A stretch of 5,507 bases of DNA, from positions 1 to 5,507 of the forward strand of contig JADFOP010000068.1 of the NCBI GenBank assembly GCA_022562795.1, given 5' to 3'. This stretch comes from Nitrospinota bacterium (GTDB lineage Bacteria > JADFOP01). This document shows positions 58 through 5,498 of the stretch, one piece after another. The notes under the pieces were generated by a model, which saw nothing but the letters and a program-made list of their open reading frames with translations, made no database searches and was not told where the DNA came from. Position 1 is the first letter of the stretch. The number at the start of each line of letters is the position of its first letter. The translations under genes and the position numbers were made by a program.

Positions 58-227
58 AATGCCAAGCATGCGACAAGAATGCGACCGAGCACGTGACCGA
101 ACTGGACGGTGCAGTTCCGGCAGAGTACCCCGTTTGCGAAGAGCACGCGTGCGATCTTTCAAAACTCACGGGCGTCGAACCTATTGCAATTCATTCCAGA
201 GAAATGTATACGCCAGGGCGGACATGA
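54..227 (+). CDS. Small Cys/His protein, putative zinc-binding
   Basis: This 57-residue frame starts MKCQACDKNATEHVTELD and ends at TGA. It has CxxC at residues 3-6, His13, then Cys28 and the segment CEEHAC (28-33). The layout C-x-x-C-x(4)-A-T-x-H-x-T-E followed by C-E-E-H-A resembles the short Cys-rich domain found at the N-terminus of McsA-like (UvrB-motif-associated) proteins and of many small hypothetical proteins, where the paired Cys probably bind zinc. That resemblance is from memory. No UvrB/UvrC motif is visible and the protein is too short to be McsA itself. It overlaps the preceding gene by ATGA, suggesting coupled translation. Its last 47 bases overlap, tail to tail, the 3' end of the minus-strand oligopeptidase-like tail. 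Conserved spacing of Cys, His and Thr-Glu makes it likely real; function is unknown. Confidence 0.6.
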   Translation: MKCQACDKNATEHVTELDGAVPAEYPVCEEHACDLSKLTGVEPIAIHSREMYTPGRT

Positions 228-594
228 AAGCCGTTTGCTTGTTGTTTGCGGCACCGCCGTGACCGCCTTCGATGTTTTCGTAATAGAGCACATCGTGGCC
301 CATGGCCTTCATTTTCGCCACCATCTTGCGGGCATGACCGGGGTGCACTCGATCGTCACGTGTCGACGTCGTAAAAAGAATACGGGGATAGTGGGCATCT
401 TTGGTCACATTGTGGTAGGGGGAGAACGTGCGCACGAACTGCCACTGGTCGGGATCGTCCGGATTACCGTACTCGGCGATCCAGCTCGCCCCTGCCAGCA
501 ACTTGTGGTATCGCTGCATATCGAGCAGAGGCACCCGGCATACGATCGCCCCGAATAGGTCCGGTCGCATCGTGAGCATGTTGCCCATCAGCAG
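181..594 (-). pseudogene. C-terminal fragment of a prolyl oligopeptidase (S9A) gene, in frame with the TPR gene
   Basis: Residues 527-663 of the chimeric frame match the known C-terminal end of prolyl oligopeptidases: L-L-M-G-N-M after the catalytic Ser turn, P-D-L-F-G-A, V-P-L-L-D-M, E-Y-G-N-P, S-P-Y-H-N-V, the D-D-R-V catalytic Asp motif (606-609) and the G-G-H-G-G catalytic His motif (636-640), ending A-L-A-Y-T-F-L-W. Full-length family members are about 680-730 residues, so roughly the first 80% is missing, including the beta-propeller and the nucleophile Ser. The part present is undamaged, with no frameshift or stop, which argues against old decay and for a recent join or assembly artefact. 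Its GC (about 54% over 181-480) is lower than the adjoining TPR region (about 64% over 601-900). Confidence 0.8.
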
Positions 595-2172
595 GTGCGC
601 GTCAGTAAAGAGCGGCTTGATGGAGACCGCTTGGGCGAGCAGCCATTCCGCCTCCTCGGAAGCCTTTCCCTGGGCTAACAGAGCGCGGGCGAGGTTGTAG
701 AGGGTCGGCGGCGCATCGGGCTGAAGAAGCAAGGAGCGCCTGTAGGCGGCCTCGGCATCGATCCAATGGGTATCGCGGGCTTCGATAAGGCCAAGGTTGT
801 GCAAGGCCTCTGCCGAGTCGGGCTCCAGGTCGAGGGCCTTCTCAATCTCCTCCCTAGCCTCCTCCCACCGCCCTTTAGAGATCAGCGCCGCGCCGAGGTT
901 CAGGTGGGCCCGTGAGCTTTCGGGCGACGCGGCCACCGTGGCCCTCCACAAGGTGAGCTCGTCCTTCCAGACCCTGGTCCTCATAGCGGTGCGGAGGCCG
1001 AGCGTCAAGATGAGCAGACCGATAGCCCCCCAAACTATTTTGGCTTGGGGGGAAGCGCCTCGGACAGCAGCTCCCTCAAGCCCATCGCTAGCAAGGAGCC
1101 CCACGGCCCAACAAAACCCAATGGATGGGATGAAGAGATACCGCTCGGCCATGGGGTTGTCCAGAGGGACGAGGTTCGCTACGGGCAGCAGCGTAATTAG
1201 GAGCCACGCGAGGCCGAATCCCACAAGGGGTCTCTTTCTATACCCCAACACTATCGCGTAAACGGCGATCACAAAGACGACGAGGCCCGCGAGCGCTTGG
1301 GGCTCGGCAAGATTCTCGATAGGCCTGACCAGGTAATCCGCATTGAGGCGCAGAGGAAAGAGGAGTAGCCTTGCGTACTGCGCAAGGATGCCGGGCATCG
1401 TAATTATCGCGCTCGCCAAAGAACCCCCGACGTAGCCCGTCGAGTGAGGGGGCCCGGCGTAGGGCCCGAACCTGAGTACGGCGTAGACGCCCGTTACGGC
1501 CAGCAGCGCGCCGTATCGGCGCCACAACGCCTTAGGCTCAAGCGGAGCCTTGCGCCGCCGTGCAATGGCGCCGTCGTAAGCCAAGACGAGGAAGGGAAAT
1601 ACGAGGGCCACCTCCTTGGAGAGGAGCCCGAGGGCGTAGAGGCCTATGGCCCCGGCCCACCACGCGCCCGCACGGCCTCCTTGATCCGCCTTAATGATGC
1701 ACAAGAAGGCCGAAAGCAGGAACAGGGCGCAGAGGACATCGGACCGCAGGCCTGAGACCATAACCGACTCCACATGGACGGGGTGGACGGCGAAGAGGGC
1801 CGCAGCAATTAAGGCGGCCCGCCCTCGCATGCCCATCTGGAGAGCAAGCCCGAAGACGAGCAAGACGACGAGCGTGTAGAGGAAGAGGTCAAGGGCGTTG
1901 TGACCGGGTGCCCAGTAACGAAAAAGGCCCACGGAGAAAAAATGGGAGAGCGTCACTAAGGGGCGCCAGCTCCCTTCCTGGAAGCGACTGAAGTAGAGCT
2001 CGGGGTCGATAATCAAGCGGACGTTTTCGGGATGTAGGAGCTCAGGAGTGTCAAGAATGTAGCCCGTATCATCCCAAACGAAATCGTTCCCAAGCGACCC
2101 GGCATAGGTGGCCCAGGCAAGAAAAACGAGCAGACCGAAGCCGAGCACCCTTCTGCGATTAATGAGTAGCAT
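181..2172 (-). CDS. TMTC-like membrane glycosyltransferase/TPR protein fused to a prolyl oligopeptidase tail (chimeric ORF)
   Basis: The frame has 663 codons, starts with ATG and ends with TAG. Residues 1-400 are strongly hydrophobic with about ten predicted membrane segments. They carry hallmarks of GT-C/TMTC-type proteins: N-D-F-V-W-D-D (29-35), probably the acidic first-loop motif; W-R-P-L (69-72); A-V-H-P-V-H-V-E-S (128-136); L-S-K-E (184-187); and the AERYLFIPSIGF segment (342-353). Related proteins transfer sugars from lipid carriers, or are proposed to, outside the cytoplasmic membrane; the substrate here is unknown. About three TPRs follow (roughly 420-521) and a fourth begins. At L527-L533 the protein switches to the C-terminal end of an S9A prolyl oligopeptidase: RPDLFGAIVCRVPLLDM (536-552), the Asp-bearing STRDDRVHPGH (603-613) and GGHGG with His638. 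The S9A nucleophile motif GGSNGG, which should directly precede Leu-Leu-Met-Gly, is absent, so this tail cannot be an active peptidase. The membrane part is a confident call; the fusion as a natural protein is doubtful. Confidence 0.85.
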   Translation of the reverse strand: MLLINRRRVLGFGLLVFLAWATYAGSLGNDFVWDDTGYILDTPELLHPENVRLIIDPELYFSRFQEGSWRPLVTLSHFFSVGLFRYWAPGHNALDLFLYTLVVLLVFGLALQMGMRGRAALIAAALFAVHPVHVESVMVSGLRSDVLCALFLLSAFLCIIKADQGGRAGAWWAGAIGLYALGLLSKEVALVFPFLVLAYDGAIARRRKAPLEPKALWRRYGALLAVTGVYAVLRFGPYAGPPHSTGYVGGSLASAIITMPGILAQYARLLLFPLRLNADYLVRPIENLAEPQALAGLVVFVIAVYAIVLGYRKRPLVGFGLAWLLITLLPVANLVPLDNPMAERYLFIPSIGFCWAVGLLASDGLEGAAVRGASPQAKIVWGAIGLLILTLGLRTAMRTRVWKDELTLWRATVAASPESSRAHLNLGAALISKGRWEEAREEIEKALDLEPDSAEALHNLGLIEARDTHWIDAEAAYRRSLLLQPDAPPTLYNLARALLAQGKASEEAEWLLAQAVSIKPLFTDAHLLMGNMLTMRPDLFGAIVCRVPLLDMQRYHKLLAGASWIAEYGNPDDPDQWQFVRTFSPYHNVTKDAHYPRILFTTSTRDDRVHPGHARKMVAKMKAMGHDVLYYENIEGGHGGAANNKQTAFMSALAYTFLWNELQ
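574..594 (-). other. Chimera junction with shared coding word
   Basis: On the minus strand these bases encode Leu-Leu-Met-Gly-Asn-Met-Leu. The residues fit both the first helix of a TPR (D-A-H-x-x-x-G-x-x-L) and the conserved segment after the catalytic Ser of prolyl oligopeptidase (G-G-L-L-M-G-N-M). The DNA word is about CTGCTGATGGGCAACATGCT, close to the k-mer lengths at which short-read assemblers can cross-join genomes. The exact breakpoint within the shared stretch cannot be set from this sequence. Confidence 0.7.
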
Positions 2173-2320: not shown

Positions 2321-3550
2321 TCAGCCGCCGCGGTCAACGAGCTTTGAACGTTCGCTCAGCAATGCCCTGGCCTGGGCCACCACCTGCTCGGGCTTGATGC
2401 CGGTCATGCACTTGTTGTCGTGGCAAGGAGAGCGCTTCTGGTTATAAGCCGACACGCAGGGGCTGCAGGCCAGATGGAGGTAGATTGCCTGCACGTTGGG
2501 TCCCAAAGGCCCGTAGATATTCGGCGTCTCCGGCCCAAAGAGGACGAGGGCCGGGAGATCGGTAAGAGAGACGAAGTGGGCCGGGCCCGAGTCGTTGGTT
2601 ATTAAAAGATGGCTTACGTTGTAGAGGTCTACGAGCTGTCTCAAGGTAGTTTCGCCGGAGAAATTGAGCACGCGGTCCGAGGCGATCTCCCCGCGCATGG
2701 CCTCAGCGTGGGCTCGCTCTTCTGTCGTGCCGGTCAACACCAACACGAGATCGGGGTCTTCCAGGAGCCCGCGGCCCAGGTCGATAAAATTCTCCCTCGG
2801 CCACCTGCGGACGGCCACGAGGTCGCTGGCATTGGGGTTGAGCAATACCAGTCGGTGCTCAGGCCCCAGGCGGGGGTAAAGCTCTTTGAGCCTCTCTTTG
2901 ATGGCCTGCCGGGCGGATTCTGAGCTCTGTACGCGGGGCAGATCAAGGGAGATGTCGTCCAGGGGCCGCTTGCACAAGGGCTCAGAGCCTCCCTCCTCGC
3001 TCGCGGCTTCGACCAGAGCGATGAAAGTCTCGGCCGCATGGAGGTGCGGGTTGTAGATGACCTTGTGGGTGAGCAGGTCTCCCGTATAGCGGCCCTCCTC
3101 GAAGAAGCGATGAAAGCCGACCCTGCGTTGCGCTCCGCTGAGAAAAGCCAGCAGAGTGCTGAAGCGGGCGAAGGCCTCCAGGTTGATGGTCGTGTCGATC
3201 TTCTCGCCCCGGATGAATCGGATTGCCTTAAGGGTATCAGCCAGGAAGCTCCAAGGGCCGTCGGGCCGAATGATGATGTGGTTCTCATCCTCGATGATAC
3301 CCATGATCTCCAGCATGCCCTTGCCGCCGCTGAAAGTGAGGAAGTATAGCTCGGCGTCGGGAAAGCGCCGACGGGCGTGCCGCAAAGCCGGGTAGGCCAC
3401 CACGAGTCCACCGATCTCAGCCATCTCAATGAATAGTATCCGTTTGGGGGGCCCAACGTCCTTGCGAGGCCTCGCCAGGCGCATAAGGCGCGAAAATATG
3501 GTGGCTACGAAGCAGCAAGGGATACCAACCCAGCGGTCGATCTTCCGCAT
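2321..3550 (-). CDS. Glycosyltransferase family 9 (heptosyltransferase-like)
   Basis: From the ATG at 3550 this encodes 409 residues, ending at TGA. It has the two-domain GT-B layout of family 9 enzymes, which move heptose or another sugar from a nucleotide donor onto lipopolysaccharide core or related envelope glycans at the inner face of the cytoplasmic membrane. The N-terminal strand RILFIEMAEIGGLVVAYPAL (37-56) matches the usual K/R-I-L-x-I-x-x-x-x-I/M-G-x-x-V-x-x-x-P-A-L opening. In the C-terminal half, LLNPNAS (236-242) plus RRWP (248-251), ITNDSGPAH (317-325) and LFGPETP (337-343) are the donor-site motifs. A four-Cys cluster (362, 365, 376, 381) follows, common in one branch of the family. 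A short hydrophobic stretch (about 8-20) may help membrane association. An in-frame GTG at 3601 would add 17 residues. ATG is preferred because AGGGG lies 8 bases before it and because MRKIDRWVGIPCCF looks like the family N-terminus. Donor and acceptor cannot be told. Confidence 0.9.
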   Translation of the reverse strand: MRKIDRWVGIPCCFVATIFSRLMRLARPRKDVGPPKRILFIEMAEIGGLVVAYPALRHARRRFPDAELYFLTFSGGKGMLEIMGIIEDENHIIIRPDGPWSFLADTLKAIRFIRGEKIDTTINLEAFARFSTLLAFLSGAQRRVGFHRFFEEGRYTGDLLTHKVIYNPHLHAAETFIALVEAASEEGGSEPLCKRPLDDISLDLPRVQSSESARQAIKERLKELYPRLGPEHRLVLLNPNASDLVAVRRWPRENFIDLGRGLLEDPDLVLVLTGTTEERAHAEAMRGEIASDRVLNFSGETTLRQLVDLYNVSHLLITNDSGPAHFVSLTDLPALVLFGPETPNIYGPLGPNVQAIYLHLACSPCVSAYNQKRSPCHDNKCMTGIKPEQVVAQARALLSERSKLVDRGG

Positions 3551-3558
3551 CGTATCCG

Positions 3559-3563
3559 CCCCT
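3559..3563 (-). promoter_or_regulatory. Ribosome binding site that decides the glycosyltransferase start
   Basis: On the minus strand AGGGG sits 8 bases before the ATG at 3550, which favours that start over the upstream in-frame GTG at 3601. The GTG itself has a GGGGG run six bases before it, so the longer form is not excluded. Confidence 0.5.
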
Positions 3564-3617
3564 GGAAGGGAAATAGCCGCTAGCTGTGGCGGAAGCAACA
3601 CCTATAACCCCCATAAA

Positions 3618-3659: not shown

Positions 3660-3862
3660 GCGGTCGATCCTCGGGCGGGCCCAAAGGAGTGTGTGAGGCG
3701 GGGCCTTGAGAGGCAATCTCAAATAGACCACGCGGGCCACGGCTCTACCGCAGGGAAAATCTAGCGGGGTATACAGAAGGCGCAGGAAGAGGAGGACGTC
3801 AGGCTGCCTGCAAAGAAAGACGGCCGTGGAAGGATGGAGATGTTAAGGCCAGGCCGTAAAGA

Positions 3863-3896: not shown

Positions 3897-5489
3897 TTAA
3901 AGTCGCGGTAAGCCAGTCGAGATCGCGTTAGAGCGGACGGTCGACTGTGAAAGGCAACCGCGTTGCGCTCGGTTCTTGGTCTTGCCTCGGATGACTTCGA
4001 CGGGTGGTCCACAAGCGGGAAGCGGCTGGTGAGAAGCCGTGGGCGGACCGACGGCCGACGCCGTCCGTCGGACCACTAAACGGCCGTTGGCCCCCACAAC
4101 AACCTCCGCCCCTTGGGGAAGACCTGGGAGCGTGACAAGGCTTCGACCGTCCGGCCCCTCGACGAGGAGCGCGCCTAGAGGTTTGACTAGCCAGCGGCCG
4201 TCGGCACCCTCGACCAGCTTCGCCCCGGGCGGCAGGACGTGGACCGTACCCGTCGAGTCGGCCTCAAGCCGTCCGCCTGGCGGCACCACCCGCCAGATCC
4301 CGTCAGGGCCCTCCATGATCTCGGAGTCCGCCGGCACCACGTGGGCCTTCCCCTCGGGGTCGAGAGTGAGGTTGGCACCAGGGGGTACGACGTGGTTCTG
4401 TCTCTGAGTATCGGCCACAGTCCGCCCCCCAGGCGGGACAAGGAGGTCCCTTTCCGTTCGGTAACCCGTCGGGACAACCTGGACACGCCCGGAGTAGTCA
4501 CGCTTTATGTGGGCGCCGGCTGGGGCGACCTGGACCTGCCCGGTGTAGTACCGCTCAAGGCGAGCGCCGGCTGTGACGACCCAAACCCACCCTGTGTAGT
4601 CCCGCTCTAGGTTGGCACCAGGCGGGACGACCCGGACCTCCCCAGTATAGTCCCGCTCCAGGTTGGCGCCAGCCGGGACGACCCGGACCTCCCCGGTGTA
4701 GTCCCGCTCCAGGCGAGCGCCGGCTGTGACGACCCAAACCCGCCCGGTGTAGTCCCGCTCCAGGTTGGCGCCAGCCGGGACGACCCGGACCCTTCCGGTG
4801 TAGTCCCGCTCCAGGTTTGCGGCGGCCGGGACGAGGTTGACCCGCCCTGTGTAGTCCTTCTCCAGGTGGGTGCCAGTTGGGACGATGTGGACCTCCCCGG
4901 TGTAGTCCTTCTCCAGGTAGGCGCCAGCCGGGACGACCTGGACCTCCCCGGTGTAGTCCTTCTCCAGGTGGGCGCCAGCTGGGACAATGTGGACCCGCCC
5001 CGTGTAGTCCCGCTCCGGGTGGGCGCCGGCCGGGAGAACGTGGACCTGCCCGGTGTAATCTCGCTTCAGGCGGCCGCTAGGGGGCAGGACGTGTAGCCGA
5101 CCCTTGTAATCCCGGACCAAACGCCCGCTTGCCTCGGGCCGGTCACCGTAAATGAGGGTATCCACGCTCCCGCCGGGGTTGAACTGCGTCGTTCCAGTCA
5201 CTGTGGCCACCCGGCCGTCGGGGTAGTGGAGTGCGTTGTTGCCGACAAAGAAGGCTAGCTCAGCAAAGGCCAGAGGCTCGCTCAAGCGGTCACCTAGCTC
5301 CTTTATATTCAGTGCGAACTCTTCATTCGTCATCCTGCGGGCCGTACGTATGATTCTTTCGACCCGGGCCCGATTGCGGGCCTTCTCCTCGGGGCTCAGG
5401 AAACCCAGGAGGTACTCTATGCGTTCCTCCAGCACCTCCGAGGGAATCGCCCTAAGCCAGGTTAAGAGATGCTCCATGTCGGGTAGCAT
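3897..5489 (-). CDS. Uncharacterised 17-residue tandem-repeat protein
   Basis: I do not recognise this 530-residue protein. Residues 1-85 are rich in charged residues with heptad-like hydrophobic spacing and should be mostly helical. A Gly-rich linker (about 86-122) follows, then 13 tandem 17-residue units (123-343) with the pattern x-L-E-R/K-D-Y-T-G-x-V-x-V-V-P-A-G-A. About eight decayed units follow (344-478), where D-Y-T-G becomes P-D-G or A-D-G but V-V-P-P-G-A persists, then a Pro/Cys-containing tail (479-530) with no repeat. Alternating short V-x-V-V strands and Gly/Pro turns every 17 residues suggest a beta-solenoid or beta-ribbon rod; this is inference. No signal peptide, membrane segment or sorting motif is visible, so export is not supported. 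The ATG at 5489 has GAGG 5 bases upstream, but the frame stays open to the window edge (six more codons), so an earlier start is possible. D-Y-T-G-R-V recalls YD/RHS repeats, but the period is shorter and no RHS core is present. Confidence 0.75.
   Translation of the reverse strand: MLPDMEHLLTWLRAIPSEVLEERIEYLLGFLSPEEKARNRARVERIIRTARRMTNEEFALNIKELGDRLSEPLAFAELAFFVGNNALHYPDGRVATVTGTTQFNPGGSVDTLIYGDRPEASGRLVRDYKGRLHVLPPSGRLKRDYTGQVHVLPAGAHPERDYTGRVHIVPAGAHLEKDYTGEVQVVPAGAYLEKDYTGEVHIVPTGTHLEKDYTGRVNLVPAAANLERDYTGRVRVVPAGANLERDYTGRVWVVTAGARLERDYTGEVRVVPAGANLERDYTGEVRVVPPGANLERDYTGWVWVVTAGARLERYYTGQVQVAPAGAHIKRDYSGRVQVVPTGYRTERDLLVPPGGRTVADTQRQNHVVPPGANLTLDPEGKAHVVPADSEIMEGPDGIWRVVPPGGRLEADSTGTVHVLPPGAKLVEGADGRWLVKPLGALLVEGPDGRSLVTLPGLPQGAEVVVGANGRLVVRRTASAVGPPTASHQPLPACGPPVEVIRGKTKNRAQRGCLSQSTVRSNAISTGLPRL
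4056..4460 (-). repeat. Decayed continuation of the 17-residue repeat array
   Basis: About eight further units can be aligned by their V-V-P-P-G-A or L-P-P-G-A ends. One is shortened to 12 residues (344-355) and one is lengthened to 21 (441-461). DNA similarity to the main array is mostly lost, so these units are older or under different constraint from the homogeneous units upstream. Confidence 0.75.
4461..5123 (-). repeat. Tandem array of thirteen 51-bp units
   Basis: Exactly 13 x 51 bases encode 13 aligned 17-residue units without insertion or deletion. Units 2-12 keep Y-T-G unchanged. The variable positions cluster at unit position 1 (R, H, Y, N) and positions 9 and 11 (R/E/Q/W and H/Q/N/R/W), while the framework V, V, P and G are nearly fixed. 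Because 51 is a multiple of three, every reading frame stays open across the array, which explains the long spurious antisense frames here. Confidence 0.95.
4561..4866 (-). repeat. 153-bp higher-order duplication inside the array
   Basis: Two adjacent blocks of three units each, 4561-4713 and 4714-4866, are offset by exactly 153 bases. By hand comparison 90 of the first 100 bases agree, and both blocks carry the distinctive W-V-V-T-A-G-A unit. This is a segmental duplication on top of the 51-bp period. Confidence 0.8.
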
Positions 5490-5494
5490 GACGG

Positions 5495-5498
5495 CCTC
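5495..5498 (-). promoter_or_regulatory. Ribosome binding site for the repeat protein
   Basis: GAGG, within GGGCGAGG on the minus strand, lies 5 bases before the ATG at 5489. This supports that ATG as the start even though the frame is open to the right edge of the window. Confidence 0.4.

Follow-up and report, generated by a model that had tools for sequence, protein, structure and literature searches.

Locus and neighbouring genes

The window, by which we mean the whole stretch of DNA that was analysed, is an entire contig of 5507 bp. It belongs to a genome of 2.15 Mb in 84 contigs, and the host phylum is barely sampled, with only 3 genomes in the collection searched. The genes follow one another on the minus strand: at 3897-5489 an open reading frame (ORF) of 530 aa that carries a tandem repeat, then at 2321-3601 a heptosyltransferase-like gene of glycosyltransferase family 9, and at 181-2172 the gene for a membrane glycosyltransferase that is PMT-like and contains TPRs. 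A genome of the same genus, G001, has both glycosyltransferase genes in identical order (73% and 67% identity) and carries a Crp/Fnr-type regulator at the homologous place of the repeat gene; a close copy of this regulator gene was not found in the window's genome, where the best match was 30% identical. DNA similarity to G001 was confined between 581 and 3665, and both contig ends diverged. The gene order in G001 and the stop of the similarity at 3665 place the repeat gene in a lineage-specific segment adjoining a conserved gene pair. Nothing ties the repeat gene functionally to its glycosyltransferase neighbours.

Several other features were observed in the window. A strong sigma-70-like promoter (TTGACA-16-TATTGT, with TG ahead of TATTGT) precedes the glycosyltransferase family 9 gene at 3659-3632 on the minus strand, and the similarity to G001 ends immediately upstream of this promoter-like site. 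At 181-620 (minus strand), the PMT/TPR ORF falls short of its last TPRs compared with G001, the DNA match ending at 581, and continues without a change of frame into a C-terminal part like that of prolyl oligopeptidases (PF00326, positions 77-209 of the model), in which the front of the catalytic domain is absent. An intact peptidase of this type was not found elsewhere in the genome; either a deletion fused two genes here or the contig end is chimeric. A small ORF on the plus strand (54-227) starts MKCQACDKNATEHVTELDG and carries a CxxC motif; it presumably resembles short zinc-finger proteins of the UvrB/UvrC- or McsA-like type, and a Pfam search with it gave no match above the cut-off.

The repeat array

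The self-identity of the protein at lag 17 was 0.41, compared with a maximum of 0.13 in 500 shuffles, which corresponds to a period of 17 aa or 51 nt, and TRF reported 51 nt x 11.9 copies at 4470-5077. The strict 17-residue period described in the earlier note was thus reproduced, as were its 13 units of perfect length. These 13 contiguous units, one of the DYKG and 12 of the DYTG type, occupy residues 127-347 (4449-5111, minus strand). The first unit (DYKGRLHVLPPSGRLKR) lies at 5061..5111, and the following twelve contiguous units, with the consensus D-Y-T-G-x-V-x-V-V-P-A-G-A-x-L-E-R/K, lie at 4449..5060. After a 5-residue deletion come seven decayed units (residues 348-475; 4065..4448, minus strand) with the pattern V-P-P-G-A-x-L-x-x-D/G-x-D-G-x-W/V-x-V. 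The earlier note had put their number at about eight. Six of the decayed units could be aligned with six strict ones at 38% identity and a single gap of 4 residues, and a strict-unit profile recovered the decayed units at E 1e-8 and 1e-4. The protein pattern was kept in the decayed units though their DNA had diverged.

Conservation was assessed over 19 units. G4, V8, P10 and G12 were nearly invariant (entropy 0.3-0.9 bit), positions 5, 7 and 14 were the most variable (2.3-2.6 bits), and a hydrophobic residue was present at V6, V9 and L15 in 84-89% of the units and at V8 in 100%. TRF scored a 153-bp period higher than the 51-bp period (653 vs 593), and near-identical units are spaced three apart (RVWVVTAGARLER and WVWVVTAGARLER), suggesting that part of the array grew in three-unit blocks of 153 bp. 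No further copy of the repeat was found in the genome.

Coding evidence and limits of the ORF

An open frame alone proves little here, because a 51-nt repeat keeps its frame open trivially. The between-unit dN/dS was 0.54 in minus-strand frame 0, with zero stops in the array. The other two minus frames gave 0.99 and 1.18, each with stops, and one plus frame gave 0.53 but contained 14 stops. Under an assumed star phylogeny, 5 of 500 neutral simulations gave a dN/dS as low as 0.54. The GC content by codon position was 0.62/0.42/0.72 in the N-terminal part of the ORF and 0.63-0.64/0.44/0.74-0.76 in the two neighbouring genes. Judged by substitution pattern and composition, the array is real and protein-coding in minus-strand frame 0.

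The ATG at 5489 lies only 18 nt from the contig end (5507) and the frame is open to the edge, so the N-terminus is provisional, and with it the statement in the earlier note that there is no export signal and the cytoplasmic location that the note considered. A Shine-Dalgarno-like GAGG, read from the sequence at 5495..5498 (minus strand), 5 nt ahead of this ATG, supports it as the start codon without proving it. The N-terminal region comprises residues 1-116 (5142..5489, minus strand). At the other side, the gene had been placed at 4056-5489, and the ORF actually ends at 3897. The last 55 codons, an open-frame C-terminal tail after RLVVRR (3900..4064, minus strand), lack the codon-position signature, with a flat GC of 0.63/0.63/0.61 against 0.62/0.42/0.72 in the N-terminal part, and this tail possibly lies outside the real product. 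A strong GC-rich inverted repeat (hairpin; 4044-4074, z -2.4) without a T-run sits just past the decayed units and is single-copy, with no second copy in the genome. The flat codon-position GC and this hairpin suggest that the protein may in fact terminate around 4065.

Searches for homologues and known families

The complete protein, its N-terminal and decayed parts and profiles of the units all served as queries for homologues. They found none among phages, among viral or GTDB contigs, in the genome of the same genus or in another 385 genomes, and plasmids yielded no convincing homologue. Profile searches of NCBIfam, PHROGs and PADLOC gave no convincing family match, Pfam held no fitting family for either the whole protein or the array, and the N-terminal region matched no family. 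A specific test for a phage structural protein found no phage or PHROG homologue, and the phage or secretion-linked fibre suggested in the earlier note gained no support from homologues or neighbours. In the literature, nothing was found on a 17-residue repeat with a beta-solenoid or rod. These comparisons present the repeat gene as an orphan within the collections searched and not as a demonstrated family; a second member of the "protein family" that had been announced was not found. The unit-profile search and the family libraries agree with the earlier note, which could match the repeat to no named repeat family. The 17-residue unit is not catalogued in the libraries searched, and its general kind, beta-hairpin repeats, is already known.

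Several candidate matches were rejected. In Pfam, the array scored above the cut-off for DUF2487 (30.9 bits) and NlpE_C (23.9 bits), neither with a significant single stretch; the best stretches covered 19 of 142 and 18 of 90 positions, and both scores are artefacts of summing over the repeat. Plasmid matches in Bacillus subtilis and Massilia were antisense to annotated genes and compositional. Among viral loci, L019-L022 shared a single RDYTGRV motif within an unrelated protein, and in L018, a Lachnospiraceae locus, the frame in which the match begins closed within 13 codons. A match to profile A5 in one of 386 genomes (G196, E 7e-4) sits in a biotinyl-carrier-like ORF, another in G002 (E 0.08) lies in a polynucleotide phosphorylase-like ORF, and the N-terminal matches across the 386 genomes (E 0.003-0.009) were at chance level.

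Predicted fold

AlphaFold2 was given one or two sequences only. For the whole ORF, it predicted two strands per unit, with a pLDDT of 80-95 in most of the strict array (79-95 over residues 141-310) and of 67-86 in most decayed units, and left the C-terminal tail without structure (about 30). Five helices were predicted in residues 5-83, in line with the helical N-terminal domain of the earlier note, at a low pLDDT of only 36-60. An isolated-array model of 10 units (170 residues), whose alignment had just one further row, the decayed units, reached a mean pLDDT of 90.3 (each of the five models at 89-90) and a pTM of 0.64; these values have to be discounted, since even random perfect repeats receive confident AlphaFold2 models, which are often beta-solenoids (PMC11795689). 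Strands of 4-5 residues appeared at 14-17/23-26, 31-34/40-43 and onward. The array is predicted to be ordered; disorder throughout, which would have contradicted the earlier note, is not predicted.

The strand pairing was judged from DSSP assignments and from the structural neighbours. In the isolated array, DSSP left the end strands 6-9 and 167-170 unassigned and assigned 14-17 and 159-162. The unassigned terminal strands favour hairpins across the D-Y-T-G turn over a parallel solenoid. Foldseek and VIA-align returned antiparallel hairpin sheets as neighbours, including the CPAP TCP domain, teneurin/Rhs YD shells and beta-propeller blades, and no beta-solenoid occurred among the matches listed in the PDB comparisons of either model. 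When the isolated array was aligned with 985 PDB chains, only two reached Z 2, both from the entry 4bxr (CPAP TCP domain), a weak match with Z 2.3 over 125 residues at an rmsd of 8.6 A. Foldseek gave 4bxr a probability of 1.00 and a TM of 0.34, amid propellers, teneurin and Rhs shells. CPAP also ranked first when the decayed units were the phmmer query (E 9e-4, none of the stretches significant by itself), a match that may come from common turn composition. Given the weak match, we read the likeness to 4bxr as shared architecture and not as kinship.

The models predict two strands per unit in a hairpin topology. The solenoid with one coil per unit that had been proposed earlier is therefore probably wrong in topology, at the level of these models. 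We consider it unlikely that the protein is a two-strand beta-solenoid in which each 17-residue unit forms one coil, with V6, V8, A13 and L15 inside and G4 and P10-G12 at the corners. Its appeal is that 17 residues are a possible coil length and that the alternation of conserved hydrophobic and variable positions, with Gly/Pro turns, suits an inside/outside pattern. Against it, solenoids were absent from the PDB matches listed despite the leaning of AlphaFold2 towards them (PMC11795689), and the first strand of the array model was unpaired, which parallel coil-to-coil pairing does not lead one to expect.

Comparison with known systems and alternative explanations

The best single-domain structural match, although weak (Z 2.3, TM 0.34), was the CPAP/Sas-4 TCP domain (G-box, Tcp10_C), an antiparallel single-layer meander that has some 20 strands and type I turns. 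It is described as a free-standing sheet with P-D-G turns and without a hydrophobic core that binds a proline motif (PRxxPxP), and its describers called the architecture unique among natural proteins (PMC3776556). The array shares with it tandem short strands, Gly-containing turns and a hairpin repeat, and P-D-G occurs in some decayed units. Unlike TCP, the strict units turn with D-Y-T-G and P-A-G-A, and the orphan has near-identical units, a conserved hydrophobic face and a bacterial host. Tcp10_C (PF07202) gave no Pfam match at E up to 1 or 10.

Bacterial proteins of similar appearance were also compared. The P-D-G repeats of the Streptomyces AAWKG family, found in type VII secretion loci, have alternating D-G turns and V/T strands, and tblastn gave a match at E 5e-3 (48% over 66 residues), a level at which homology cannot be claimed. 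They differ in a turn-to-turn distance of mostly 8-9 residues without a 17-residue unit, and in a long WXG-like N-terminal part, a helical linker and a secretion locus. One such protein, with a P-D-G-T/S-x-T-x-T array, lies in a type VII secretion locus on a Streptomyces scopuliridis plasmid (L015, 1667-5119), and its array is possibly an open beta-sheet of similar general kind. The bacterial lectin actinohivin shares Y-x-G-x-V-x-x-L-P-A stretches (phmmer E 1e-4), but has three longer repeats in a protein of 114 residues instead of 17-residue units and reached only E 0.0024 with the unit profile; the likeness is probably convergent turn/strand composition.

A different kind of explanation, which we hold to be quite unlikely, is that an orphan ORF without a consequential folded product contains a minisatellite, which is in decay or has expanded recently, or that the contig end is chimeric and foreign to the genome. 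The gene is an orphan and is missing at the homologous place of the same-genus genome, the matches of the diverging contig ends to G001 stop at 581 and 3665, the opposite contig end bears a suspicious gene fusion, and the last 55 codons look non-coding. These points have to be set against the dN/dS of 0.54, a codon-position composition equal to that of the neighbouring genes, and the persistence of the protein pattern in the decayed units after the DNA had diverged.

We doubt strongly that the array forms a trimeric fibre shaft, as a triple beta-spiral or similar, with the hydrophobic face buried among three chains and the helices as a trimeric base. The triple beta-spiral consensus has hydrophobic residues at c, e, g, k and m and Gly/Pro at j (PMC3150272). 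The shafts of the adenovirus fibre and reovirus sigma1 resemble the array in their short repeat, Gly/Pro turn and hydrophobic strands, a conserved hydrophobic face needs a partner, and Foldseek matched several adenovirus fibre models of the viral library, the first of them with a probability of 0.99. The TM-scores of these matches, however, were ~0.1 with an rmsd of 30-60 A, and when the register was chosen to fit best with Gly/Pro at j (j = G12), polar residues fell at c and e (0.11 and 0.26 hydrophobic), so that the alternation was not found. A fibre head and a viral context were also lacking, and the phage and virus searches gave no homologue. Least probable of all, in our view, is a YD/Rhs-like beta-shell or propeller-like closed sheet in place of an open rod: teneurin and Rhs shells, as well as propellers, come up repeatedly in the structural comparisons, and YD/RHS repeats likewise have Tyr beside an acidic residue, a Gly turn before an R-V/L strand and antiparallel hairpin sheets, but their unit is longer (~20-22 aa against 17), RHS_repeat (PF05593) was unmatched in Pfam at E up to 10, the repeat spans only ~350 residues, and no shell-closing, shell-plugging, core or enclosed domain was present.

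A possible hairpin rod

The finding is a real orphan repeat protein that is probably ordered. As its best explanation we tentatively propose, at somewhat less than even probability, a lineage-specific structural or scaffold protein that forms a hairpin/meander rod and acts as a multivalent binder. The first strand of a unit would be formed by positions 14-17 (x-L-E-R/K), and the second, across the D-Y-T-G turn, by positions 6-9 of the next unit (V-x-V-V), with 17:6, 16:7, 15:8 and 14:9 as putative pairs across the loop. Successive hairpins would be joined by the P-A-G-A turn. About 20 units would then give ~40 strands in one elongated sheet or hairpin stack, and if all strands lay side by side at 4.8 A per strand, the rod would be ~19 nm long.

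With 17:6 and 15:8 paired, V6, V8 and L15, which are conserved, would share one face, and positions 7 and 14, which vary, would lie with E16 on the opposite face. A hydrophobic face that is conserved is hard to reconcile with a single-layer sheet standing free in a monomer, which speaks against the hairpin rod in that form; this face would pack on a second chain or a partner. The repeated variable polar face and the exposed edges could bind an extended ligand many times, and the N-terminal helices may anchor or oligomerise the rod. Since a one-faced sheet should either lie against a second sheet or bind some partner lengthwise, a role of the rod in spacing or gathering partners is favoured. 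We infer its length, faces, strand pairing, packing, binding, location and function from the models and the repeat pattern. That a long open hairpin/meander rod like that of the centriolar TCP domain evolved independently in this bacterial protein, from near-identical 17-residue units multiplying three at a time, and serves as a cytoplasmic ruler or multivalent scaffold, appears improbable to us as a specific version of this proposal.

If the hairpin rod is true, the protein would offer a natural and almost perfect block of 17 residues from which extended beta-sheets are built. Such a block would be of use in repeat-protein design and give a handle on how free-standing or one-faced beta-sheets escape aggregation. 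The protein would, in addition, be a bacterial counterpart to the TCP architecture (PMC3776556).
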